Assembly (NCBI GenBank): GCA_030679145.1
Contig: JAUXTU010000116.1
Span: 1 to 64,000 of the forward strand
Reading direction: 5' to 3'
Length of the DNA: 64,000 nt
Origin: Bacteroidota bacterium
GTDB taxonomy: Bacteria; Bacteroidota; Ignavibacteria; UBA10030; UBA8401
Shown here: in pieces, positions 8,251 to 64,000 of the stretch
How positions within the stretch are numbered: the first letter of the stretch is position 1
How the letters are laid out: each line of letters begins with the position of its first letter
Program-made: the position numbers and the translations under genes
Notes under the pieces: generated by a model
The model's input: only the letters and a program-made list of their open reading frames with translations
Told to the model about the DNA's origin: nothing
Databases searched by the model: none

Positions 8251-8406
8251 AATGGTTCAAATTTAGTTTGTGCTTACTCTATTCGGTTTTCAGCATCCCC
8301 GTTTATTTTAAATTGTAAAAATTAATTTCTTGTTCCATTGTTTCAAGTTGCGATGACGCCAATGTAGTAACCTTTTTTCCATATTTCTCATTCACACACA
8401 ATTCAA

Positions 8407-51318: not shown

Positions 51319-52968
51319 TTATTTTGTTTGTATCGCGGAAATTTGATCCACAATATTGTGGGTTGTAATGTCTTGGGAATTCCAAATTGCAATCGGTGTC
51401 AAGGCAAATTTCTTGATAATCTCATTAATGTGAGAATTGCGGATAACGATAATGATTGTGCCTGAATAGTTTTGAAGGATATCGTCCAAAGGATCAGCCC
51501 AGCCGCTTCCGCTAAGTTCGAGCGGACCGATTTCATCCATGATTGCTACATCACATTTACCGATTGTTGAAATCGACAAAGCATTTCTGCCAAATTGGAT
51601 CGCTTCAGGAAAAAACTTAAATGGTCCAGTAGAAATTCCCGTATCAGGAGCATCAATGCGGCAAAGTGGAATGATGGATCCGGATTCGATACTGAGTAGA
51701 TCATATCCATATCGCACATTATTCTTCCACAACCCTATCTGTAAAATACCGCAGGTCGCGATCTTTTTCATCTTTAACTCAGGAAGAAGATCTTGAAGAA
51801 TCGTTGTTTTCCCGCTTCCTTTTTCTCCACTCAAAACAAAAACTTTTGATGTTGGTATTTGAATCTCATTTGTGCGAGCGAGGATTCTTGACAACGAATC
51901 TACCGGATGTCTAAAAAAAGTTTTTTCTTGTTGTAAGGAGTCAATAATGGATGGTAAAGCGCCGAACGCAAGGTCTAATGCCAGTGAAAAGTTCTTCATC
52001 CGTTGTTTGAACAAAAAATTTACGACCACCGGATTTCGCAGCTCAACGCTAACAGCAGTAAATATAGAAATGACAAAGATTGCACGAAAGAACATCTGCA
52101 GTCCAATGATAATACCTGATGTTCGATCGACGAGTGTTAATTCTCCAAGAACGAATCCGGCAAAAATTGATACGATTCCTATCTCACCCCAAAACATCCA
52201 TCGTTGGAATTTTTGTCGTACCTTTTGATATCGATAAAAACAAAAAGGGATATAGAGTAAAAGATAGAATGATTGAACAATAAGTCCGCCTACGAGAACG
52301 AAAAAATGCGTGGCTAACAATAGTGCAGAAAAATGAAATCCGGCAACTTCACGTTTGTTAAATTGGTGGGAGAGTTTCGAGATGTTGTTTGGTCTCGTTT
52401 CTGCGTATATCGCAGCCCTTATGCCAACCCTCATGCCGGTAATTGCGGCAATACTTCCTCCAAAAAGATTTATCACAATGATACCAACAATGACATCGAC
52501 CGAGCTCAAAGTCGAGATCTGTAAACTTTTCGATGCAAACTCTACTAATTTTTCAAATAGCACAGCGATGTTCATACCGTAAGTAAAAAGATACGATATC
52601 GTTTTCTGAATGAGCGGTGTTGTGCAGGCAACAGCACCTCCAACGATGTAACCAAAAGCGTTACCGCCTAGCAATCTGATCGCTGTCTCAACAATGAATG
52701 CTTCAGCTGCTATTCCGATCATAGGACCAAGTATGACAGAACTCGGTGAAACTGATTTCATCACCGCGCAGATGAGACCGGCTCTCCATACAATACCTTT
52801 CTCTTTCCATAAAGAATGTCCTGCAATCAGTAAAGAGATCCCTACTGCTGAGAGGATGGTGCCTGTTAATGGAAATTTTAGATTATGCAGAAAACTACCA
52901 ACTACGATCTCGAGCGAAGCCCACACGCTTCCGAGTAGTGCAGCTTTCTGCCAGCGTTGATTTATCAT
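51319..52968 (-). CDS. Multispanning membrane protein fused to a THEP1-type NTPase domain
   Basis: 549 residues from the ATG at 52968 (the track start is a TTG five codons earlier). Residues 1-340 are integral membrane with about eight helices: the first 120 resemble an ECF-type substrate-binding (S) component, and about 290-345 (GIIIGLQMFFRAIFVISIFT...ALDLAFGALPSIIDSL) looks like the end of an EcfT/CbiQ-type T component. The C-terminal 175 residues are a P-loop NTPase: Walker A GEKGSGKTT near 378 and Walker B DEIGPLEL near 476, the NTPase_1/THEP1 signature. Divergently transcribed from the purine-type operon; function not established. Confidence 0.75.
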   Translation of the reverse strand: MINQRWQKAALLGSVWASLEIVVGSFLHNLKFPLTGTILSAVGISLLIAGHSLWKEKGIVWRAGLICAVMKSVSPSSVILGPMIGIAAEAFIVETAIRLLGGNAFGYIVGGAVACTTPLIQKTISYLFTYGMNIAVLFEKLVEFASKSLQISTLSSVDVIVGIIVINLFGGSIAAITGMRVGIRAAIYAETRPNNISKLSHQFNKREVAGFHFSALLLATHFFVLVGGLIVQSFYLLLYIPFCFYRYQKVRQKFQRWMFWGEIGIVSIFAGFVLGELTLVDRTSGIIIGLQMFFRAIFVISIFTAVSVELRNPVVVNFLFKQRMKNFSLALDLAFGALPSIIDSLQQEKTFFRHPVDSLSRILARTNEIQIPTSKVFVLSGEKGSGKTTILQDLLPELKMKKIATCGILQIGLWKNNVRYGYDLLSIESGSIIPLCRIDAPDTGISTGPFKFFPEAIQFGRNALSISTIGKCDVAIMDEIGPLELSGSGWADPLDDILQNYSGTIIIVIRNSHINEIIKKFALTPIAIWNSQDITTHNIVDQISAIQTK

Positions 52969-53029
52969 TGGTCTTTTGTTCAAAGGTATTTATAATTATG
53001 TTATTATTACATTTAGGTATCAATATAAA

Positions 53030-53114: not shown

Positions 53115-54395
53115 ATGAAAAAAGTGTCGCTGGAAAACGAAGATAATAAATTCACACCGCCTCGTTTTGTTACGGGACTACAATGCTTCATCTGCGGATC
53201 GAAGTACGACTATGACAATGTTCAGACCTGTCCGAAATGCGGCATTGAAGGAATCCTTGATGTTCTATACGATTACGATGAGATAAGACCAAATCTCAAA
53301 TCTCAAATCTCAAATCGCTCTTTTGATCACTGGCGCTACAAAGAATTGCTTCCTATATCGGATGACATTCAACTTCCGCATTTACACATCGGCTGGTCTC
53401 CGGTGTATGATGTTCCGCGCTTTGCATCGCATTTTGGAATAAAGAAAGTATTTATAAAAGATGACGGTCGAAACCCGACTAGTTCATTTAAAGATCGCGC
53501 GAGTTCCGTTGGAGTTTTGAAAGCCATAGAATTTGGTTTTGACACCATTGCATGTGCTTCAACAGGAAACGCCGCTTCATCACTCGCCGGACTTTCTGCC
53601 GCTGTTGGGTTGAAAAGTTATATTTTCGTTCCGCAGCGTGCGCCCGAACCGAAAGTAACGCAGCTTCTTGTGTTTGGCGCAACAGTTTTAAAAGTGCAGG
53701 GGACATATGAAAATGCTTTTGATCTTTGCCGCGAAGCGTGTGTAAAGTTTGGCTGGTACAATCGAAACAGCGGAACAAATCCATTTTTAGTTGAAGGGAA
53801 GAAAACTGCAGGGTTAGAAATTGCTGAACAATGTGCACATGATCTTCCGGATTGGGTAGTTGTTTCTGTCGGTGACGGATGCACGATCGGTGGAATTGGA
53901 AAAGGGTTACAGGAGATGAAACGTCTTGGATTCATTGACCGCGTTCCACGATTATTAGGAGTGCAAGCAGAAGGTGCAAGGGCAATGGTTAATGCATTTA
54001 TTTCCGGGAAGGATCTTGTTCCTACGGATACAAACACAATTGCAGACAGTATTGCTGTCGGCACTCCGCGCAATTGGCGCAGGGCAATTCAGCAGATCAA
54101 ACAATCACACGGTGAAATGATCACTGTTTCCGATGAAGAAATTCTTGAAGCAATGAAAACCACGGCGCGTCTTAGCGGTGTTTTTGGCGAACCCGCCGGT
54201 GTTACTGCTTCTGCTGGATTAAAAAGTGCGTTAGAAAAACAAATTATTAAACCAAACGAATCAGCACTTGTTATTGTTACAGGGAACGGATTAAAAGATA
54301 TTCAATCTGCAAAACAAGCTGTTGGAGATCCGATCAGTTTACCACCTACACTTGAAGCATTAACAGCGGCTCTTTCATTCCAGAATATTAAATAA
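53115..54395 (+). CDS. Threonine synthase-like PLP enzyme with N-terminal zinc-ribbon-like region
   Basis: 426 residues of fold type II PLP enzyme. N-terminal CFICG...CPKCG (about 25-45) is a two-CxxC module typical of one threonine synthase branch. The PLP lysine is in TSSFKDRASS and the phosphate-binding loop is CASTGNAASSLAG; TGNGLKD is near the end. The family converts O-phosphohomoserine to threonine, but its place as first gene of a purine/molybdenum hydroxylase operon suggests another amino acid substrate. Four copies of a seven-base repeat (53290-53317) lie in the linker after the CxxC module. It is followed by ssnA after four bases. Confidence 0.82.
   Translation: MKKVSLENEDNKFTPPRFVTGLQCFICGSKYDYDNVQTCPKCGIEGILDVLYDYDEIRPNLKSQISNRSFDHWRYKELLPISDDIQLPHLHIGWSPVYDVPRFASHFGIKKVFIKDDGRNPTSSFKDRASSVGVLKAIEFGFDTIACASTGNAASSLAGLSAAVGLKSYIFVPQRAPEPKVTQLLVFGATVLKVQGTYENAFDLCREACVKFGWYNRNSGTNPFLVEGKKTAGLEIAEQCAHDLPDWVVVSVGDGCTIGGIGKGLQEMKRLGFIDRVPRLLGVQAEGARAMVNAFISGKDLVPTDTNTIADSIAVGTPRNWRRAIQQIKQSHGEMITVSDEEILEAMKTTARLSGVFGEPAGVTASAGLKSALEKQIIKPNESALVIVTGNGLKDIQSAKQAVGDPISLPPTLEALTAALSFQNIK
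53290..53317 (+). repeat. Heptanucleotide repeat inside the threonine synthase-like gene
   Basis: CAAATCT repeated three times exactly and a fourth time as CAAATCG. Seven is not a multiple of three, so gain or loss of one unit would shift the frame just after the zinc-ribbon-like region (coding NLKSQISN). Confidence 0.75.
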
Positions 54396-54399
54396 TTTT

Positions 54400-55704
54400 T
54401 TGAAAACACTCCTAAAAAATAGCGTTGCTATTACTCTCTTTCCAAGTTCGATAGAAACTGTTGACTTGCGAATCAGTAATAGTCTTATTGTCGAGCGGGG
54501 AAAAAATCTTTTGCCACAAGCGGGAGAAAAAATTTTTGATCTCAAGGGAAAAATTGTTTTACCCGGAATGGTGAATGCTCATACGCATTTGTATTCTACT
54601 CTTTCCCGCGGAATGCCAATGCCGAAAACACCACCGAGAAATTTTATTGAGATATTGAAAAAGATCTGGTGGAAATTGGATCGTGCGCTTGATGAAGAAA
54701 CGATCTATTATAGTGCACTGGTCGGAGCAATTGAAGCTGTTCAAAATGGCACAACAACAATCATCGATCATCATGCATCGCCGAATGCAATCAACGGTTC
54801 GCTTGAAATTATTAAAGAAGCAATGGCAAAGATTGGACTTCGCGGCGTATTATGCTATGAAGTGACAGATCGCGGTGGAAAGAAACAACGTGACGAGGGA
54901 ATTGCTGAGAACGAAAATTTTATCCTCAAAAACTATAATAATTCATTTTTTCGCGGGCTTGTTGGCGCGCATGCATCTTTCACATTAAGTGAAGAATCGC
55001 TTTCACTGTGCGGTGAATTAGCTTCCGCATATAATACCGGCGTTCATATTCATGTTGCGGAAGATTTGTGCGATGTTGTTGATGCTGAAAGAAAATATCA
55101 CTGCGGCATTGTTGATCGTCTTTCTCGCAATAATATTCTTACAAACAAATCAATTCTTGGACACTGTATCCATCTTTCACAAAAAGATTATTCTCGACTC
55201 AATAAAACTCAAACGTGGTTTGCGCACAATCCGCGTTCGAATATGAATAATAAGGTTGGGTATTCCCCAATCCATCAATTCAAAAATCGGGGAATGATCG
55301 GGACGGATGGTTTTCCTTCGGACATGATCGAAGAAGCAAAGATCGCATTTTTCAAACGCCAAGATTCTCAACAAAAACAAAAAATTGATTTTTCCCGTAT
55401 CATTTCCGGTGGACAGCAATACGTTTCAGATATGTTCGGTTCGCAGTTTGGAACTCTGGCAAAAAATTCTGTTGCCGATCTAGTTGTATCGGATTATGTC
55501 GCCCCAACTCCAATGACGAAAGAAAATATCCTCGGACATTATTTATATGGAATGCGTTCGGCAAATATTGAATCTGTAATAGTAGGCGGGAAATGGGTAA
55601 TGAAAGATCGCAAAGTGTTGGGAATTGATGTTGAGCGAATCTATTCCGAAGCAGATAAGAAATCGAAAAAAATGTGGATCAAAATGATGGAGACGGTCCC
55701 ATGA
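54400..55704 (+). CDS. ssnA: SsnA-type amidohydrolase
   Basis: 434 residues, close to the E. coli SsnA length of about 440. It uses a TTG start five bases after the preceding stop; no better start lies before the conserved N-terminus. Amidohydrolase/cytosine deaminase-like metal site: NAHTHLYS (HxH near 60), HIHVAED, GHCIHLS and GTDGFPSDM. GTLAKNSVADLVV is the usual C-terminal beta sandwich motif. SsnA always accompanies YgfK, YgeW, YgeY and a molybdenum hydroxylase in clusters of this type and probably deaminates or opens a purine-derived ring; the exact reaction is unproven. Confidence 0.88.
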   Translation: MKTLLKNSVAITLFPSSIETVDLRISNSLIVERGKNLLPQAGEKIFDLKGKIVLPGMVNAHTHLYSTLSRGMPMPKTPPRNFIEILKKIWWKLDRALDEETIYYSALVGAIEAVQNGTTTIIDHHASPNAINGSLEIIKEAMAKIGLRGVLCYEVTDRGGKKQRDEGIAENENFILKNYNNSFFRGLVGAHASFTLSEESLSLCGELASAYNTGVHIHVAEDLCDVVDAERKYHCGIVDRLSRNNILTNKSILGHCIHLSQKDYSRLNKTQTWFAHNPRSNMNNKVGYSPIHQFKNRGMIGTDGFPSDMIEEAKIAFFKRQDSQQKQKIDFSRIISGGQQYVSDMFGSQFGTLAKNSVADLVVSDYVAPTPMTKENILGHYLYGMRSANIESVIVGGKWVMKDRKVLGIDVERIYSEADKKSKKMWIKMMETVP

Positions 55705-55769
55705 ACAATTATTTCAGCATAGCGAACCCATCGCTTTAAGTGATAGGTTCGCTTCTAAACTTAAAAAAA

Positions 55770-57770
55770 ATGGCAGAACTCGTACCAATATCATTCAACA
55801 CTCTTTTACGAAGAATGTATTACGAATACTCGAAGACACATGCGATCTTCGATCTGCCGTCGCGGAAATTCTACTCTCCATCTGCTGAAGAAAATCTTGC
55901 TGTTACTTCCTGCGGAAATCCAGCCGCAAATCCCGTCGGTCCAGCTGCCGGACCTCACACACAACTCGCACAAAATATCGCACTCTCGTGGCTTGCCGGT
56001 TCACGAATTATCGAATTAAAAACCGTTCAGATCAAAGACCAGCTTGAACTTTCACGTCCATGCATTGACATGGCGACGATCGGTTATAACACGGAATGGT
56101 CACAGGAACTGCGTCTTGAAGAATCTGCTAAAGAATACGTAAAAGCAAGTATGATCGTAGAAATTTTGAAACATTGGCTATTTCTTGATGTTCCAAATTC
56201 AAAATTCAAATCATCACAATTCAATACAATCTTTGATGTAAGTGTTGGATACGATCTTGCCGGAATTCAATCATCGCAAATCAGGTCGTGGTTGAAAACG
56301 ATGAAGGATGCATCTGTTCTTATTGAAGAATTGCGAAAAGAAATTCCGGAAGAGTTCAAACAGTTCCGCACTTTTCCATTTAATACAAAAATATCGGACA
56401 GCATTACGCTTTCAACATTTCACGGAACTCCTGCAGATGAAATTGAACGGATCAGTGAATTCCTGTTGAGTGAAATGGGATTTCATGTTGTTGTGAAAAT
56501 GAATCCGCCGATGCTCGGCAAATCGCGTCTTGATCATTTGCTGTATGAAAAACTTGGCTACACGAATATTGTTGTGAATCCGAAAGCGTACGAAGTCAAT
56601 ATTCTGTTTGATGATGCCGTTGCCATGGTGAAACGGCTGCAAAATATCGCTTTGAAAAATAAAAAAATGATCGGTGTGAAATTTGGCAACACGCTTGAAG
56701 TGGTAAACAGTGGAAAATTTCTGAAAGACAAGGTTCAATATCTTTCCGGTCAGCCGCTTCACATTCTTCATCTCTCACTTGTTGATGATTGGCGTAAAGT
56801 TTTCGGCGGAGATTTCCCGGTCTCTTTTTCCGCCGGCGTTGATGCAAATAATTTTGCTGATTGTGTTTCCATCGGACTTGTACCCGTTACAACATGCACC
56901 GATCTTCTTCGTCCTGGCGGCTATGGAAGATTGCCGCAGTATCTTTTGAATTTAGAAAGACGGATGAAAGATGTTGGCGCAACGACGATTAATGAGTTTA
57001 TTGTTAAAACGGGTTCAGGGTTCATGGTTCAGGATTCAAATGAACCAATAACCATGAACCGTGAAACTGCTATTTTGAAAAACACTCAATTGCTATTTGA
57101 TAAATCTATTTCAAATCCGCGCTATCATGCAGCAAATAATGCAAAGCCTCTAAGAAAAATCGGCAGCCATTTGCAATTATTCGACTGCATCAACTGTGAT
57201 AAATGTATTCCAGTCTGCCCGAACGATGCAAATTTCTATTTTGAAATTGAGCCGATGGAAATTGATTATGAAAATGTTGAACTATCAGCGCAAGGATGGA
57301 AGAAAATCGTTGGCGGACATTTATTAATTAAAGAAAAACATCAGATCGGTAATTACGCCGATGCGTGCAATGATTGTGGCAATTGCGACATCTTCTGTCC
57401 TGAAGATGGCGGACCATATATTGAAAAGCCGAGGTTTTTTGGTTCGATAGAATCTTACAAAAAATGGAGTACTTTAAGCGGATTTGTTTTGCAATCCGAT
57501 AAAAACAACGTTATTCTCTTCGGACGATTTAAAGATCAAGAATATGAATTACATCGTGATCAACAAAGCAATATGACAGTTTTCAAAAGCAATTCGGCGC
57601 AGGTGATAATACATTCAGAAACCAACGACATAATTGATGCAACAGGAGCAGTTTCTTCGGTTATAGATATGCGATATTATTTCGTGATGTCCACATTGTT
57701 GAACGGAATCATGAATACACAAAAAGTCCATTTTGTAAATACAGAATTAATAAAAAATAACGCTCGTTAA
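55770..57770 (+). CDS. ygfK: YgfK-type Fe-S oxidoreductase, short form lacking the FAD/NAD(P) module
   Basis: 666 residues from the ATG at 55770; the GTG at 55740 is less likely because E. coli YgfK aligns from (M)..LVPISFNTLL. The N-terminal dihydroorotate dehydrogenase-like barrel is shown by NPVGPAAGPHTQLAQNIA. Two 4Fe-4S motifs follow: CINCDKCIPVCPND near 471 and CNDCGNCDIFCPED near 531. E. coli YgfK is about 1030 residues and has a glutamate synthase-like FAD/NAD(P)H domain between these parts; no GxGxxG segment is seen here. It probably carries electrons for the molybdenum hydroxylase encoded next. Confidence 0.87.
   Translation: MAELVPISFNTLLRRMYYEYSKTHAIFDLPSRKFYSPSAEENLAVTSCGNPAANPVGPAAGPHTQLAQNIALSWLAGSRIIELKTVQIKDQLELSRPCIDMATIGYNTEWSQELRLEESAKEYVKASMIVEILKHWLFLDVPNSKFKSSQFNTIFDVSVGYDLAGIQSSQIRSWLKTMKDASVLIEELRKEIPEEFKQFRTFPFNTKISDSITLSTFHGTPADEIERISEFLLSEMGFHVVVKMNPPMLGKSRLDHLLYEKLGYTNIVVNPKAYEVNILFDDAVAMVKRLQNIALKNKKMIGVKFGNTLEVVNSGKFLKDKVQYLSGQPLHILHLSLVDDWRKVFGGDFPVSFSAGVDANNFADCVSIGLVPVTTCTDLLRPGGYGRLPQYLLNLERRMKDVGATTINEFIVKTGSGFMVQDSNEPITMNRETAILKNTQLLFDKSISNPRYHAANNAKPLRKIGSHLQLFDCINCDKCIPVCPNDANFYFEIEPMEIDYENVELSAQGWKKIVGGHLLIKEKHQIGNYADACNDCGNCDIFCPEDGGPYIEKPRFFGSIESYKKWSTLSGFVLQSDKNNVILFGRFKDQEYELHRDQQSNMTVFKSNSAQVIIHSETNDIIDATGAVSSVIDMRYYFVMSTLLNGIMNTQKVHFVNTELIKNNAR
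57019..57060 (+). repeat. Perfect 11-base inverted repeat inside ygfK
   Basis: GGTTCATGGTT and AACCATGAACC, 20 bases apart, in the codons for FMVQDSNEPITMN between the barrel and Fe-S parts of YgfK. The stem would be strong in mRNA. It looks like a piece of intergenic repeat accommodated in frame. Confidence 0.6.
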
Positions 57771-57793
57771 ACGAACGGTATTCTTAGAAGAGT

Positions 57794-60376
57794 ATGAATA
57801 CTATCCAATTTACATTGAATGGAAAGGAATTCGAAGCAGCAATCGATGAGAATATCTCATTGATGGATGTTCTGCGCGAACAAGCTGGGTTGATCTCGCC
57901 AAAGAATGGATGCGCACCTCAGGGTTCGTGCGGTTGCTGCGTCGTTATTGTAGATGGCAAAGCAGTTTCATCGTGCGCAGTTCCGGCAAAGAATGTTCAG
58001 GGGAAGAATGTTATTACTCTTGAAGGATTAGATGAAAACGAACGCAATATTTTTGCAAAAGCATTTGTACTTGCTGCCGGCACACAATGCGGATTTTGCA
58101 CTCCGGGAATTGTAATGCGTGCAAAAAGTCTTATTCAAAAGAATCCGAATCCAAGCAGAGAAGAAATAGCTCTTTCATTGAACAATCACATTTGCCGCTG
58201 TACCGGTTACGTAAAGATTGTTGATGCGATCGATCTTGCGGCAAAAGCATTTAATGGCGTGCCGCTTCCGAAACCGGACTATTCAGGAAAAATCGGTTCG
58301 AGTCTTCCAAAAATGGATGGCGAAAAATTTGCGATGGGTGAACGTCCGTATATTGATGATATTACAATGCCTGAGATGTTGTATTCAGCATTTCTTTTTT
58401 CCCCACATCCAAGAATTAAAATTAAAAAGATCGATACTACAGAAGCAGAAAAAATTCCTGGTGTCGCACGTGTTGTAAAGGCAGGCGATGTTCCGGGTGC
58501 ACGAAAGCAGGGTCTTATCTATAAAGATTGGCCGCTGCTACATGCAGAAGGAGAGATAACTCATTGCATCGGAGATATTCTTGCAATGGTCGTTGCAAAA
58601 GATAATCGTACGGCTCGCAAAGCCGTAGAGAAAATTAAATTGGAATATGATATCCTTTCTGGTGTATTTGATCCAGAAGAAGCATTGAAACCAAATTCGC
58701 CGCAGGTGCATGCAGATCACGTAAATCTCTTGTCTAATTCAATCATTAAACGCGGTGATGTTGATACGGCATTGGCAGAATCTGCATTTGTTGAAACACG
58801 AACTTTTGAAACACAGATGATTGAGCATGCGTTTCTTGAACCAGAAAGTGCAATAGCATTCCCGAAGGATGGAGTTATTGAAGTGCTGAGTCAGGGTCAA
58901 GGTGTGTTTGATGATCGAAAACAGATTGCATCATTTCTGAATTTGCCGGAAGAAAAAGTGAAAGTAACTCTTATTACCAATGGTGGAGCTTTTGGCGGAA
59001 AAGAAGATCTCAGTATCCAAGCACACGTTGCACTTGCATCAATGCTGATAGGCAAACCCGTGAAAGCAACATTAACGCGTGAAGAAAGTATTCGCCTTCA
59101 TCCGAAACGTCATCCGATAAAAATGACATACACTGTTGGATGTGATGCGAATGGAAAACTGACGGGGGTTCGTGCGCGAATGATCGGAGATAAAGGGGCA
59201 TACGCTTCTGTTGGCACAAAAGTATTGGAACGAGCCGCGGGACATGCGTGTGGTCCCTACAATATTTTAAATTCAGATGTTGAAGCAAAAGCTGTGTATA
59301 CAAACAATCTTCCCTGTGGAGCGATGCGCGGTTTCGGTGCAAACCAAGCGTCGTTTGCAATAGAAGGAATGATGGACATTCTTGCGGAAAAAGTTGGAAT
59401 CGACGGATGGGAAATTCGATGGAGAAATGTTGTGGATGTCGGTGATACATTTTGTACCGGACAAGTTTTTGAACGAGCGGTCGGAATCAAAAAAACATTG
59501 CTGGCAGTAAAAGATATTTATTATTCATCGAAATATGTCGGCATTGGGTGTGGAATAAAAAATGTCGGTATTGGAAACGGTATGCCGGAATACGGACAAG
59601 CGATCGTATCAATTCATCCGGACGAAACAATCACGATCAACACCGGCTTTACAGATATGGGACAAGGGTTTTGTACGGTGATGATCCAATTCTTCAGCGA
59701 TGTTACGGGAATAGATCCGAGAACAATTCGTGTAGATATTGATACGACACAGCCAACACCTTGCGGAATGACAACAGCATCAAGAGCAACAGTGCTTGGG
59801 GGCCGCGCCGTGATCAAAGCAGCACAGGAAATGAAAAAAGATCTTGATGCAGGGAAGAAAATATCTGATTTGGCCGGCAAAAAATATTTTGGCGAAGTTG
59901 TTATTGATTACACAACGGCTCTTGAAGCAAAGACAAATAAACCGATCACGCATATGACGTTTGGTTTTGCAACGCAAGTATGTATTCTTGATGAGACAGG
60001 GAAAGTGAAAAAAATCGTTGCTGCTCACGATGTAGGAAGGATCATTAATAGAAAACTTCTTGAAGGTCAAATGGAAGGTTCTATTCACATGGGTCTTGGA
60101 TATGCGTTGACAGAAGAATTGAAATTGAAAGAAGGCGTTCCTGAATCATTTAAATTCCGTTCACTTGGAATATTACGGGCGAAGGATATGCCCGAAACGG
60201 AAGTTATTTTTATTGAAGAACATGAATCCGAAGGACCGTTTGGCGCAAAAGGTGTTGGCGAAATAGGACTTGTGCCGACAGCCGGAGCAGTAGCAGGTGC
60301 ATTATATAAATATGACGGTATTCGCCGTTTCAAACTGCCGATGAAAGATTCGCCCGCAGCAAAACAGATTTTATAA
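57794..60376 (+). CDS. xdh: Fused 2Fe-2S/molybdenum-binding xanthine dehydrogenase (selenium-dependent type)
   Basis: 860 residues, the size of the Se-dependent XDH/XdhD fused type. Residues 1-160 carry both 2Fe-2S clusters: C40, C46, C49, C61 (NGCAPQGSCGCC) and C99, C102, C134, C136 (CGFC...CRC). The molybdopterin domains follow, with GGAFGGKED near 397, MRGFGANQ and GVGEIGLVP (catalytic Glu near 821); PCGMTTASRAT also occurs in the Se-linked group. No FAD subunit gene is adjacent. Likely hydroxylates a purine such as hypoxanthine or xanthine, or reduces urate, with selenium as a labile ligand; selD is not in the window. Confidence 0.9.
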   Translation: MNTIQFTLNGKEFEAAIDENISLMDVLREQAGLISPKNGCAPQGSCGCCVVIVDGKAVSSCAVPAKNVQGKNVITLEGLDENERNIFAKAFVLAAGTQCGFCTPGIVMRAKSLIQKNPNPSREEIALSLNNHICRCTGYVKIVDAIDLAAKAFNGVPLPKPDYSGKIGSSLPKMDGEKFAMGERPYIDDITMPEMLYSAFLFSPHPRIKIKKIDTTEAEKIPGVARVVKAGDVPGARKQGLIYKDWPLLHAEGEITHCIGDILAMVVAKDNRTARKAVEKIKLEYDILSGVFDPEEALKPNSPQVHADHVNLLSNSIIKRGDVDTALAESAFVETRTFETQMIEHAFLEPESAIAFPKDGVIEVLSQGQGVFDDRKQIASFLNLPEEKVKVTLITNGGAFGGKEDLSIQAHVALASMLIGKPVKATLTREESIRLHPKRHPIKMTYTVGCDANGKLTGVRARMIGDKGAYASVGTKVLERAAGHACGPYNILNSDVEAKAVYTNNLPCGAMRGFGANQASFAIEGMMDILAEKVGIDGWEIRWRNVVDVGDTFCTGQVFERAVGIKKTLLAVKDIYYSSKYVGIGCGIKNVGIGNGMPEYGQAIVSIHPDETITINTGFTDMGQGFCTVMIQFFSDVTGIDPRTIRVDIDTTQPTPCGMTTASRATVLGGRAVIKAAQEMKKDLDAGKKISDLAGKKYFGEVVIDYTTALEAKTNKPITHMTFGFATQVCILDETGKVKKIVAAHDVGRIINRKLLEGQMEGSIHMGLGYALTEELKLKEGVPESFKFRSLGILRAKDMPETEVIFIEEHESEGPFGAKGVGEIGLVPTAGAVAGALYKYDGIRRFKLPMKDSPAAKQIL

Positions 60377-60410
60377 GTAAAAATGAATTATTAAAAACGA
60401 AAGGATTACA

Positions 60411-61598
60411 ATGCAACAAGTATTTCAACCACAGTTCAACACACTGAGCAGTTTAAAAACAAATATGTTTAACAAAGATTTTCTTCTGACATGGGATCGA
60501 TCAGATGATGAATTGAAAGCAGTTCTTACCGTAGCACAATTATTGAAAGATATGCACAAAGCGGGGAAGTCGATTCGTACATTTGATACTGGGCTTGCAA
60601 TTTCAATTTTTCGCGACAATTCTACGCGTACACGTTTCAGTTATGCATCGGCAGCGAACGCGCTCGGTCTTGGTCTTTCCGAACTTGATGAAGAAAAATC
60701 ACAGATAGCCCATGGTGAAACTGTTCGTGAAACAGCAAATATGATCTCGTTTCTTGCAGAAGTAATCGGAATTCGTGACGATATGTTTCTTGGTGAAGGT
60801 CATACATATATGCGTGAATTTGGCGCATCCATTCAAGAAGGATATGATAACGGAATCCTTCATCAACGACCAACCGTTGTGAACTTGCAATGCGATATCG
60901 ATCATCCGACGCAGGCTCTTGCTGATCTTATGCAATTGAAAAACACATTCGGTTCGGTTGAAAATCTCCGTGGTAAAAAAATTGCGATGACATGGGCATA
61001 TTCACCAAGTTACGGTAAGCCGCTTTCTGTTCCACAAGGAGTTATCGGATTGATGTCGCGTTATGGAATGGATGTTTCCCTTGCGTATCCGGAAGGATAT
61101 GGATTGATTCCTGAAGTGATTGAGCAAGCAAAGAAACAATCTGCACAAACCGGCGGAAAATTTGAGGTCGTCAATAATATGGAAGATGCATTTAAAAATG
61201 CAGACATTGTTTATCCAAAATCGTGGGCGCCGTTCAACGTTATGCAGCGCAGGACTGTTCTATTGAACAGCAATGACAAACCGGGATTGAAAGAACTTGA
61301 AAAAGAATGTCTTGCAAATAATGCGAAGTTTAAAAATTGGGAATGTGATGAGAAGAAAATGAAATTGACGAAGAAAGGCGAAGCGTTGTATATGCATTGC
61401 CTGCCCGCGGATATTTCCGGAGTAAGCTGCGCTGAAGGTGAAGTATCAAAAGATGTTTTTGATAAATACCGTCTTGCAACATATGCGGAAGCGGGTTACA
61501 AACCGTTTGTGATCGCTGCGTTGATGTTCTTAACACGAATGGAAAATCCAACTGAAAAAATGAAACAGATGTTGGAACAGAATACAAGCAGAAGATAA
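60411..61598 (+). CDS. ygeW: YgeW-type carbamoyltransferase
   Basis: 395 residues, the same as E. coli YgeW (396), to which it is clearly similar (FLLTW..SDDELK; DEEKSQIAHGETVRETANMIS; TWAYSPSYGKPLSVPQG; WAPFNVMQRR). Carbamoyl phosphate site STRTR near 71, HPTQ near 164, HCLP near 329. The family is thought to carry out a reversible carbamoyl transfer in purine breakdown (releasing carbamoyl phosphate from a ureido compound); the acceptor is not proven. AAAGG lies before the ATG. Confidence 0.93.
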   Translation: MQQVFQPQFNTLSSLKTNMFNKDFLLTWDRSDDELKAVLTVAQLLKDMHKAGKSIRTFDTGLAISIFRDNSTRTRFSYASAANALGLGLSELDEEKSQIAHGETVRETANMISFLAEVIGIRDDMFLGEGHTYMREFGASIQEGYDNGILHQRPTVVNLQCDIDHPTQALADLMQLKNTFGSVENLRGKKIAMTWAYSPSYGKPLSVPQGVIGLMSRYGMDVSLAYPEGYGLIPEVIEQAKKQSAQTGGKFEVVNNMEDAFKNADIVYPKSWAPFNVMQRRTVLLNSNDKPGLKELEKECLANNAKFKNWECDEKKMKLTKKGEALYMHCLPADISGVSCAEGEVSKDVFDKYRLATYAEAGYKPFVIAALMFLTRMENPTEKMKQMLEQNTSRR

Positions 61599-61602
61599 AA
61601 AT

Positions 61603-61658
61603 ATTACTACAAAGACGCAGAGATGTTAAATTTTATTCTTTGTGTCTTTGCGGTTAAT
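61603..61658. repeat. CAAAGACGCAGAG-type intergenic inverted repeat
   Basis: ATTACTACAAAGACGCAGAG pairs imperfectly with TTCTTTGTGTCTTTGCGGTTAA. It is the same type as the repeat at 30441 and lies between ygeW and the next PLP gene; it contains the false upstream GTG start of the latter. Confidence 0.55.
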
Positions 61659-61674
61659 TAAAAATGGAGTATTG

Positions 61675-63123
61675 ATGTCAAAAATAATTAAAAAAATAAA
61701 TCGTGAAGTAGTAAAAAAGACAGCGGCGCGATGCAAAGCGCAGGGTATTACTATTCCAACATTCGCCCAAATGCGCAATCCGAATTTGATTCCGGATTCA
61801 GTAAAACAAAAACTTCCTTCAATTGGATTATGGGATGTAAATCCGCTGAATTTATATCGGATCACTTGGAAAAATGATGTCAAAACCGGCGGATTTGGCG
61901 GAGTGAATTATTTCGAAATCCCTAAAGCAATCACTGGCGTTAATGCCCGAATCATCGGCATTGTCGGAAAATATTTTCCAACCGGCGCGCACAAAGTTGG
62001 TGCTGCGTTCGGATGTTTGGTTCCGCGTTTGGTGAGCGGAGAATTTGATCCCGAAAAACATAAAGCGATTTGGCCTTCAACCGGTAATTATTGCCGCGGT
62101 GGAGCGTTCGATTGCCGTTTATTGGATTGCACGCCAATAGCAATTCTTCCCGAAGGAATGTCGAAGGAACGTTTTGTTTGGCTGAAGGGAATTGGTGCAG
62201 AAGTAATTGCAACACCAGGAACAGAATCGAACGTGAAAGAAATTTACGACAAATGCTGGGAACTGAAAAAAGATCCGCTCAATATCATCTTCAATCAGTT
62301 TGAAGAATTTGGCAATCCAATCTGGCATTACAATGTCACCGGTCCGGCGCTGGAAGAAGCATTTCAAGCACTTGGAGTAAAAAATGGAAATGCAGCCGCA
62401 TATATTTCTGCTACCGGTTCTGCGGGAACAATTGGTGCGGGAGATTTCCTAAAAAAACTTCATCCGAATCTCAAGATCGTTGCAAGCGAGGCGCTGCAAT
62501 GCCCGACATTGTTGATGAACGGATTTGGCGAACATCGCATTGAAGGTATTGGCGATAAGCATATTCCGTGGGTTCATAATGTGCGGAATACTGACACAGT
62601 TTCCGCAATTGATGATGAGGATTGTATGCGCGTGCTTCGCTTGTTCAATGAAGTTGAAGGACAAAAATATTTGAAATCGCAGGGGGTGACCGACGTTGAA
62701 TTGGAAAATTTGAAGTTGATGGGAATTTCCAGTATTTCGAATATGCTTTCATCAATTAAAACGGCGAAATATTTTGAATATGGTGCGAATGATGTTGTGC
62801 TGACAATTTTTACGGACGGCGCTGATATGTATCACTCTCGTGTTGAAGAATTGCGAGATGAACGAGGTGCTTATACAACAATCGAAGCTGCAAAAGATCA
62901 TGCCGCTCCGTTGATGCATCAAAGTATCGATTACTATAGGGAACTTTCATACTACGATAAAAAAGCAATTCACAATCTGAAATATTTTACGTGGGTTGAA
63001 CAGCAAGGAAAATCATCCGATGAATTGCGCGAACAATGGAATCCGGAATACTGGCGTTCACTGTTTGAAGATGAAGTTGCACAGTTTGATAAATTGATTA
63101 CAGAGTTTAATGCAATGATGTAG
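61675..63123 (+). CDS. PLP-dependent enzyme of the cysteine synthase/threonine synthase superfamily
   Basis: 482 residues, start at 61675 because GGAG is just before it; the track start (GTG at 61642) lies in a repeat. Fold type II: PLP lysine in TGAHKVGAAFG near 105, phosphate loop in WPSTGNYCRGG, and TGSAGTIGAGDF. It is longer than the E. coli YgeX ammonia-lyase (about 400 residues) and not similar to its KDES-type motif. Such long PLP enzymes do occur beside YgeW and YgeY. Likely reaction: ammonia elimination from a diamino acid, or transfer of a beta substituent. Uncertain. Confidence 0.82.
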   Translation: MSKIIKKINREVVKKTAARCKAQGITIPTFAQMRNPNLIPDSVKQKLPSIGLWDVNPLNLYRITWKNDVKTGGFGGVNYFEIPKAITGVNARIIGIVGKYFPTGAHKVGAAFGCLVPRLVSGEFDPEKHKAIWPSTGNYCRGGAFDCRLLDCTPIAILPEGMSKERFVWLKGIGAEVIATPGTESNVKEIYDKCWELKKDPLNIIFNQFEEFGNPIWHYNVTGPALEEAFQALGVKNGNAAAYISATGSAGTIGAGDFLKKLHPNLKIVASEALQCPTLLMNGFGEHRIEGIGDKHIPWVHNVRNTDTVSAIDDEDCMRVLRLFNEVEGQKYLKSQGVTDVELENLKLMGISSISNMLSSIKTAKYFEYGANDVVLTIFTDGADMYHSRVEELRDERGAYTTIEAAKDHAAPLMHQSIDYYRELSYYDKKAIHNLKYFTWVEQQGKSSDELREQWNPEYWRSLFEDEVAQFDKLITEFNAMM

Positions 63124-63149
63124 ATAAAATGTTAATCACAAATTCCTAG

Positions 63150-63291
63150 AAACCATCTTAAAAATGAATTTTATTGTCATTCCGAACGAAGTGAGGAATC
63201 TCGTTTTAATAATTGAAGTCAAAACCGAGATTTCTCCCCGCCTTCGGCGGATCGAAATGACAATGATTCGGTATTTTTGAGATGGCTTCTT
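63150..63291. repeat. MITE-like intergenic repeat, copy 2
   Basis: Outer inverted ends GAAACCATCTTAAAAAT and ATTTTTGAGATGGCTTC (15 of 17 matched); within them GTCATTCCGAACGAAGTGAG pairs with the far arm ending CGAAATGAC. It shares the CATCT.AAAAA..GTCATT start with the element at 4832. It fills the gap before ygeY. Confidence 0.65.
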
Positions 63292-63316
63292 GTAAAAAAT
63301 AAAAAAGGATAAAATC

Positions 63317-64000
63317 ATGTTACAAAAAATCTATGCAGAAGCAAAAAAAAATGAACGTGCTGTTGCGGAATTTCTTCGTGAACTGATCGCAATTAAGTCG
63401 CTCAGTTCACAAGAAGGAAATGTTATTGCGCGTGTAAAGCAGGAAATGGAAAAATGCAAATTCGATGAAATTACGATTGACCCGATGGGAAACATTATTG
63501 GTCGTATCGGTCACGGAAAGCATGTAATTGCATTCGATGCTCATGTTGATACAGTTGATGTCGGCAATCCTGAAAATTGGAAAGTTGATCCGTTCAAAGG
63601 CGATGAAAAAGGTGGTATCATTTATGGACGAGGCGCATGCGATATGAAAGGGGCACTTGCATCGATCATTTATGGCGGAAAAATTATCAAAGACCTCGGC
63701 CTTGAAGGTGATTATACATTGTATGTTGTCGGAAGTGTTCAGGAAGAAGATTGCGATGGTTTGTGCTGGCAATATATTATCAAAGAAGATAAAATTCGCC
63801 CTGAAGTTGTTGTGATCACCGAACCGACAAATCTTGCAGTGTATCGCGGCCACCGCGGACGGATGGAAATTGAAGTTCGCACCAAAGGAATTTCGTGTCA
63901 CGGTTCTGCACCGGAGCGGGGCGTGAATGCAGTGTATAAAATGGCTCCAATCGTTCAAGATATTGAGAAATTAAATGAACGCCTTGGCGGTGAACCATTC
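63317..64000 (+). CDS. ygeY: YgeY-type M20 metallohydrolase, N-terminal part (cut by window end)
   Basis: 228 codons from the ATG at 63317 to the window edge without a stop; the ORF track shows only antisense ORFs because the gene is incomplete. M20 metallopeptidase: DAHVDTVD (His ligand and catalytic Asp) near 75, GACDMKGALAS (bridging Asp) near 112, QEEDCDG (catalytic Glu and metal Glu) near 144, TEPT near 174 and HGSAPERG near 197. The sequence matches the YgeY selenium metabolism-linked hydrolase group rather than ArgE or DapE. Probably deacylates or deformylates the amino acid product of the pathway. AAAAGG lies before the ATG. Confidence 0.9.
   Translation, partial: MLQKIYAEAKKNERAVAEFLRELIAIKSLSSQEGNVIARVKQEMEKCKFDEITIDPMGNIIGRIGHGKHVIAFDAHVDTVDVGNPENWKVDPFKGDEKGGIIYGRGACDMKGALASIIYGGKIIKDLGLEGDYTLYVVGSVQEEDCDGLCWQYIIKEDKIRPEVVVITEPTNLAVYRGHRGRMEIEVRTKGISCHGSAPERGVNAVYKMAPIVQDIEKLNERLGGEPF

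Follow-up and report, generated by a model that had tools for sequence, protein, structure and literature searches.

The reductive degradation of urate by XdhD, YgfK, SsnA, HyuA, YgeW, YgeY and YgeX was resolved biochemically in 2025 (Li et al., PMC12507026; commentary in PMC12990295). The phyla listed for SsnA in that study are Pseudomonadota, Bacillota, Chloroflexota, Actinomycetota, Spirochaetota and Elusimicrobiota. The E. coli pathway is encoded by xdhD-ygfM-ygfK-ssnA-hyuA-ygeW-yqeA-ygeY-ygeX (PMC12507026), and the C. difficile urate cluster, with UacX, an XdhD without YgfM, and UacY, depends on selD and yqeB (PMC12507026, PMC11448449). Here we describe a related cluster that begins in a 64,000-nucleotide stretch of an Ignavibacteria-related bacterium (the window, positions 1–64000 of the 151,785-bp contig C71), together with a neighbouring gene encoding a fusion of two membrane domains, S and T, with a P-loop NTPase. 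We propose that the molybdenum enzymes of this operon depend on imported molybdenum cofactor (Moco) or molybdopterin, with the S-T-NTPase family as the candidate importer. In the labels used below, G000 is the window's own genome, other G numbers are genomes of relatives, L numbers are loci and C numbers are contigs of G000.

Seven plus-strand genes occupy the window from position 53115 to its end, all in the order given by the initial annotation. They encode a threonine-synthase-like pyridoxal phosphate (PLP) enzyme, PLP1 (53115–54395, 426 aa; TIGR00260, 223 bits); the aminohydrolase SsnA (54400–55704, 434 aa; TIGR03314, 479 bits, cut-off 455.5; 40% identity to E. coli SsnA); a short YgfK (55740–57770, 676 aa); a fused Fe-S/Mo hydroxylase of the TIGR03311 type (57794–60376, 860 aa; 978 bits, cut-off 830), with Fer2, Fer2_2, Ald_Xan_dh_C and MoCoBD_1/2 domains and no FAD domain; the carbamoyltransferase YgeW (60411–61598, 395 aa; TIGR03316, 639 bits, cut-off 500; 62% identity to E. 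coli YgeW); a second PLP enzyme, PLP2, of the PALP family and, by its AlphaFold model, of the CysK/CBS (cystathionine beta-synthase) fold, with N- and C-terminal extensions (61642–63123, 493 aa); and the hydrolase YgeY, whose first 228 residues lie in the window (63317–64000) and whose gene extends to contig position 64516 (full protein 399 aa; TIGR03526, 576 bits, cut-off 321.5; 55% identity to E. coli YgeY). When the contig is read on beyond 64 kb, these seven prove to belong to a 14-gene cluster (53115–72243), which continues with carbamate kinase (46% identity to its E. coli K-12 counterpart), an aspartate carbamoyltransferase (ATCase)-like gene, MocA, a second xanthine dehydrogenase (XDH) of the ordinary type (contig 67069–70793, one Fe-S+FAD and one Mo subunit), a small membrane protein and XdhC. 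MocA and carbamate kinase are among the genes that the initial annotation proposed to look for there; hyuA, also on its list, is not in the cluster (a homolog lies on contig C15), and selD was not found in the genome.

Copies of the cluster genes with high identity are present in a second genome of the genus as well as in a sister genus, so that a chance arrangement is excluded. The mra/mur/fts division cluster lies on this contig too, which marks it as chromosomal rather than a contaminant; given this and the matching genes of the same-genus genome, misassembly or contamination is unlikely. The nearest named relatives of YgeW are from Ignavibacteriae metagenome-assembled genomes (MAGs; 81% and 78% identity).

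The cluster shares with the E. coli pathway SsnA, YgeW, YgeY, carbamate kinase, a Mo/Fe-S hydroxylase and a YgfK-family reductase. It differs in that the FAD/NAD(P)H module of YgfK is absent, the TIGR03311-type hydroxylase has no YgfM, two other PLP enzymes stand in for YgeX, HyuA is encoded elsewhere, and neither selD nor the Moco-synthesis genes were found in the genome. As in the C. difficile cluster, both reductases are without NAD(P)H-input modules, but the ring reductase is a shortened YgfK instead of the PydA-like UacX, and YgeW is kept. The family scores and the comparison with E. coli thus support the earlier proposal that purines or urate are broken down here by the E. coli and clostridial logic with replacement parts, and the assignment of the cluster as a reductive urate-degradation operon, a new variant of the known pathway, is well supported. 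The host, correctly placed in the Fibrobacteres-Chlorobi-Bacteroidetes group from the outset, extends the range of the pathway, because its Ignavibacteria-related lineage is absent from the 2025 list (PMC12507026).

All reaction steps in this organism are inferred. The second XDH would make urate, the hydroxylase at 57794 would reduce it to yanthine, the short YgfK would reduce the ring and SsnA would then open it. The HyuA homolog on C15 would open the hydantoin, YgeW would phosphorolyse one of the ureido groups, yielding carbamoyl phosphate for ATP formation by ArcC, YgeY would remove the other ureido group, and PLP1 and/or PLP2 would cleave diaminopropionate. Ferredoxin is the probable electron donor of both reductases (the hydroxylase and the short YgfK), as has been suggested for C. 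difficile (PMC12507026), since neither contains a module for NAD(P)H input.

The two molybdenum enzymes of the cluster need a cofactor for which no synthesis genes were found. G000 and the same-genus genome G093 are both estimated to be 100% complete, and neither gave a match to MoaC or MoeA in searches in which six relatives were positive; MoaA reached only 23 bits in G000. Over 31 selected genomes the two markers agreed, moeA being present in 10 of 10 moaC+ genomes and absent from 19 of 21 moaC− genomes. One of the latter, G124, is a single 3.74-Mb contig without MoaC and MoeA, yet it holds NapA, PhsA-like and XDH genes. Between G000 and G093 the hydroxylase at 57794 has 92% protein identity and a ratio of nonsynonymous to synonymous substitution rates (dN/dS) of 0.033, with synonymous sites saturated, which indicates strong purifying selection, and MocA and XdhC are retained in G000. 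The best explanation is that the genus has lost Moco synthesis and still uses its molybdenum enzymes. The initial annotation had held that a lack of Moco or selD genes would refute the pathway. Such a lack is indeed what was found, moaA, moaC and moeA all being missing, but the pathway is not thereby refuted, because selection on the hydroxylase points to cofactor uptake: with the enzyme apparently maintained and the synthesis genes not found, the cofactor must come from elsewhere.

What is missing appears to be the pterin rather than molybdate, because two relatives (G354 and G051) have lost moaA and moaC yet keep moeA and mobA, next to a small carboxymuconolactone-decarboxylase-like (CMD) gene; both carry the riboswitch-controlled module described below. 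Salvage of molybdopterin or Moco would be the simplest reading of these gene contents. A selenium-dependent hydroxylase, as first suggested, was rejected: the best selD match in G000 scored 32.8 bits against a cut-off of 125, so that the "selenium-dependent" label of the hydroxylase family is not transferable here.

The candidate importer is the S-T-NTPase fusion encoded on the minus strand at 51319–52983 (554 aa), divergently from PLP1. It consists of an S-type membrane domain (residues 1–195), a T-type membrane domain (about 196–370) and a P-loop NTPase_1 domain (about 380–526; Pfam, 1.4e-17). A homolog with 70% identity occupies the same place in G093. In G244, from another genus of the same family, that place is taken by moaA-moaE-moaC-moaB-moeA, located directly upstream of PLP1 and reading into it. 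Further homologs adjoin MocA and XDH in L057, a Bacteroidetes MAG, and in L188 a PhsA-like molybdoenzyme that is accompanied by a MobA-like gene. The S domain of the fusion matches a riboswitch-controlled S protein (L193) with E = 6.8e-11 and 25% identity, and it has all nine residues that are invariant over 17 S proteins. For the window's own gene, the argument is built on this S-domain homology, the exchange of genes at the syntenic position and the absence of the synthesis genes. The fusion would act as an inner-membrane importer of Moco or molybdopterin, and MocA would convert the imported cofactor to its cytosine dinucleotide form.

In relatives the components are encoded individually, as S (~200 aa), T (~185 aa), a TonB receptor (~640 aa) and the NTPase (~180 aa). 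Most of these split modules adjoin molybdoenzymes: NapA-G-H (L191, L196), NapA (L192, L201, L207) or a DMSO (dimethyl sulfoxide)-reductase family enzyme with TorD (L190, L193). In L190, MobA follows directly after the module, and L189 has no adjoining molybdoenzyme. In a third form, beside PhsA-like enzymes (L213, L230, L248, L249), a membrane protein of 320–365 aa is accompanied by the NTPase and by a small protein of the CMD type; members of its membrane family also occur inside purine clusters (L202, L211, L225, L197). The NTPase was seen alone in G176 and G323 (L203:8816–9319, L205:8118–8588), and the same-genus genomes G047 and G082 have an accompanying membrane gene.

The Moco riboswitch RF01055 (Rfam, 53–97 bits) lies upstream in all eight split modules, directly before S in seven and before an S-leading CMD gene in L190. 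It also precedes the (CMD-)moaA-moaC-moeA operon in three Moco-making relatives, and it was detected at no further site in the approximately 900 kb scanned. One Moco-sensing switch thus appears to control synthesis where it is present and the import-candidate module where synthesis has been lost. The known regulon likewise has RF01055 before moa operons and genes of molybdenum metabolism (Regulski et al. 2008, PMC2408646), but here it also stands before a membrane/TonB module in genomes without Moco synthesis; the text of that paper names neither "Bacteroid-" nor "TonB". The small CMD gene recurs in first position in moa operons under the Moco riboswitch and beside transporter modules (L190:11161–11490, L200, L204, L213, L230, L231–L234, L238).

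The module resembles the energy-coupling factor (ECF) vitamin transporters, composed of an S component, EcfT and EcfA, in its small S and T membrane proteins, its cofactor riboswitch, its fused and split forms, and its weak Pfam matches. PF09819 was matched by 6 and PF09605 by 5 of the 17 S members (best 2e-4 to 5e-4), although not by the window's S domain, and CbiQ by 5 of 9 T proteins (best 0.038). It differs from them in having an NTPase_1-family P-loop protein instead of EcfA, a TonB receptor in the operon, and Moco or molybdopterin as proposed ligand.

The distribution of the module was compared among genomes that carry YgfK. With NTPase-only occurrences counted, the module was present in 15 of 15 moaC− and in 4 of 10 moaC+ genomes (Fisher p = 0.0012). 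From the observed gene content and losses, homology, synteny swap and riboswitches of relatives, we infer the substrate, transport direction and energisation of the module. That the urate operon and its molybdenum enzymes run on imported cofactor, with the fusion as importer, is in our judgement the probable explanation of the whole.

Several points weigh against it. In the distribution just given, requiring an S-type membrane protein leaves 11 of 15 moaC− versus 3 of 10 moaC+ genomes (p = 0.049, a modest difference): four moaC− genomes showed the NTPase only, and three moaC+ genomes also carry an S-type protein, which is thus not a strict replacement of synthesis. Neither p value is corrected for relatedness, and the profile is treated as supporting only. 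The loss of Moco synthesis rests on MoaA, MoaC and MoeA, of which MoaA was searched in G000 alone; for the moaC− genomes, the search did not extend to MoaD/MoaE or to molybdate transporters. The fusion's own S domain has only about 25% identity to the riboswitch-controlled S proteins, neither RF01055 nor a TonB receptor was found beside the fusion in the window's own lineage, and AlphaFold models of two fusion sequences had a predicted local distance difference test (pLDDT) below 50 in the membrane part and were not used. The ECF-family matches are all below the Pfam cut-offs, and the open reading frames of the modules include no EcfA ABC ATPase, the P-loop partner being NTPase_1 (the search for EcfA covered the modules and not the rest of the genome, where a shared copy might lie). 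Related NTPase-S fusions of reverse domain order (L194:8089–9513, L195, L198, L199) have no molybdoenzyme among their recognisable neighbours and no riboswitch seen nearby; perhaps they belong to the same family and have another ligand. Finally, all RF01055 copies here are without helix P3, a form linked to the tungsten cofactor (PMC2408646), so that the cofactor could carry tungsten rather than molybdenum.

Other explanations were weighed as well. The cluster might be an ordinary reductive urate operon whose Moco genes were missed through an assembly gap or divergence, with an unrelated ECF-like protein beside it. G000 is in 123 contigs and the searches used fast first-pass screening, but the same absence was met in the second genome of the genus and in the single-contig relative, the agreement between moaC and moeA holds across the 31 genomes, and the locus syntenic to the moa operon is present in the assembly with a different gene in it, which together make this explanation unlikely. 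It is equally improbable that the S-T-NTPase module imports molybdate or tungstate in place of the cofactor. The Moco motif does precede modABC in some bacteria and its P3-less form suggests tungsten (PMC2408646); however, that form is also found ahead of moa operons within the same class, and molybdate would be unusable without MoaA, MoaC and MoeA, all missing in G000. Moreover, the genomes that lack only moaA and moaC keep moeA and mobA, and a TonB receptor would be better matched to a ligand that is large and rare than to a small anion.

The fusion could also be the purine (urate or xanthine) transporter of the cluster, which holds no UacT/XanQ-like permease; it lies beside the urate operon in G000, G093 and L057, and XanQ and UacT are encoded in the corresponding region of E. 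coli. Its homologs, however, stand under Moco riboswitches beside nitrate, thiosulfate-type and DMSO-type reductases without purine genes, and we regard a purine substrate as quite unlikely. Least credible is the view that the hydroxylases are apo-enzymes or decaying relics left after Moco loss. The synthesis genes are indeed not found, but the low dN/dS (with its saturated synonymous sites), the conservation across the genus and the retention of MocA and XdhC all contradict decay. Under import of Moco or molybdopterin, the TonB receptor of relatives, the ECF-like S/T pair and the unusual NTPase would form a first bacterial Moco/pterin uptake system, controlled by a riboswitch and serving the nitrate-, sulfur- and purine-converting molybdoenzymes of whole lineages without cofactor synthesis; we hold this wider claim to be reasonably probable.

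Moco is regarded as something that every cell has to synthesise for itself. If bacteria import it, it would be a shared good like vitamin B12, and Moco auxotrophs would exist in anaerobic communities. For these lineages, predicting nitrate, sulfur and purine metabolism solely from moa genes would then give wrong results, and a ready system for the delivery of Moco to cells would be at hand. In the papers searched, no described bacterial Moco importer was found; uptake by bacteria figures only as a passing suggestion for outer-membrane proteins of the type 11 secretion system (T11SS) or as an unrealistic model reaction, Moco uptake serving in a genome-scale model paper as an example of unrealistic gap-filling solutions (PMC3423039).

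The urate pathway itself has reached phyla outside the 2025 description, with redox modules and PLP enzymes exchanged. The short YgfK, rightly so called in the initial annotation, aligns with residues 7–406 and 905–1000 of the 1032 of E. coli YgfK (37% identity); the roughly 500 residues between, where the FAD/NAD(P)H part lies, are absent, leaving the catalytic N-terminal and the C-terminal Fe-S parts. It belongs to the YgfK family by 408 bits, under the 835-bit equivalog cut-off. The same form occurs in G093, G256, G140 and G152 (open frames of 654–693 aa), and G244 has a homolog of intermediate length (756 aa). The ring-reductase slot varies further: GltD-like and PreA-like proteins fill it, separately in the nearest Ignavibacteriae (L007, L009) and as a fusion in an Opitutae MAG (L010), and others have a full-length YgfK. 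In L007:7471–9976, L009 and L010:906–3392, these PreT/PreA-like reductases replace YgfK in otherwise similar SsnA-YgeW-PLP clusters. The hydroxylase at 57794 has 25% identity to E. coli XdhD.

The HyuA homolog on C15 is a D-hydantoinase (608 bits) located beside a PreA-like gene and an NCS1-type permease. This probable reductive pyrimidine cluster may lend its hydantoinase to the urate pathway. It spans L096:360–5276, and its PreA-like protein is without a FAD domain.

Both PLP enzymes, as annotated, have the PALP fold, and neither is a YgeX ortholog: PLP1 has 21% identity to YgeX over 196 aa, and PLP2 gave no match. Among 80 YgeW loci, none had a YgeX of more than 40% identity, while 23 had both PLP1 and PLP2, 11 had only PLP2 and 6 had only PLP1. 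PLP1 recurs in SsnA/YgeW clusters across many phyla. That it is the only ThrC of the genome was rejected, another ThrC on C18 scoring higher (278 versus 223 bits). The AlphaFold model of PLP2 has a pLDDT of 89, and among PDB folds it best matches cysteine synthase, beta-cyanoalanine synthase and CBS. Clusters of SsnA and/or YgeW with PLP enzymes were also seen in Verrucomicrobia, Acidobacteria (Holophagaceae), Bdellovibrionales and Neomarinimicrobiota (L010, L011, L013, L014, L020, L022, L025, L040 and others), none of which is in the 2025 SsnA list (PMC12507026).

The ATCase-like gene of the cluster (contig 65485–66408; L005:3485–4408) is a second aspartate-carbamoyltransferase-like gene, in which the carbamoyl-phosphate motif STRT reads GLLT. 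It is less likely to be the pyrB of the genome, as a higher-scoring ATCase lies on C110, adjoining a gene of the dihydroorotase/hydantoinase family; it may be a protein of the carbamoyltransferase fold that serves the pathway in a different role. Elsewhere in the window, positions 8271–8303 on the minus strand match the DUF805b RNA of Rfam (37.9 bits, gathering threshold 35.6).

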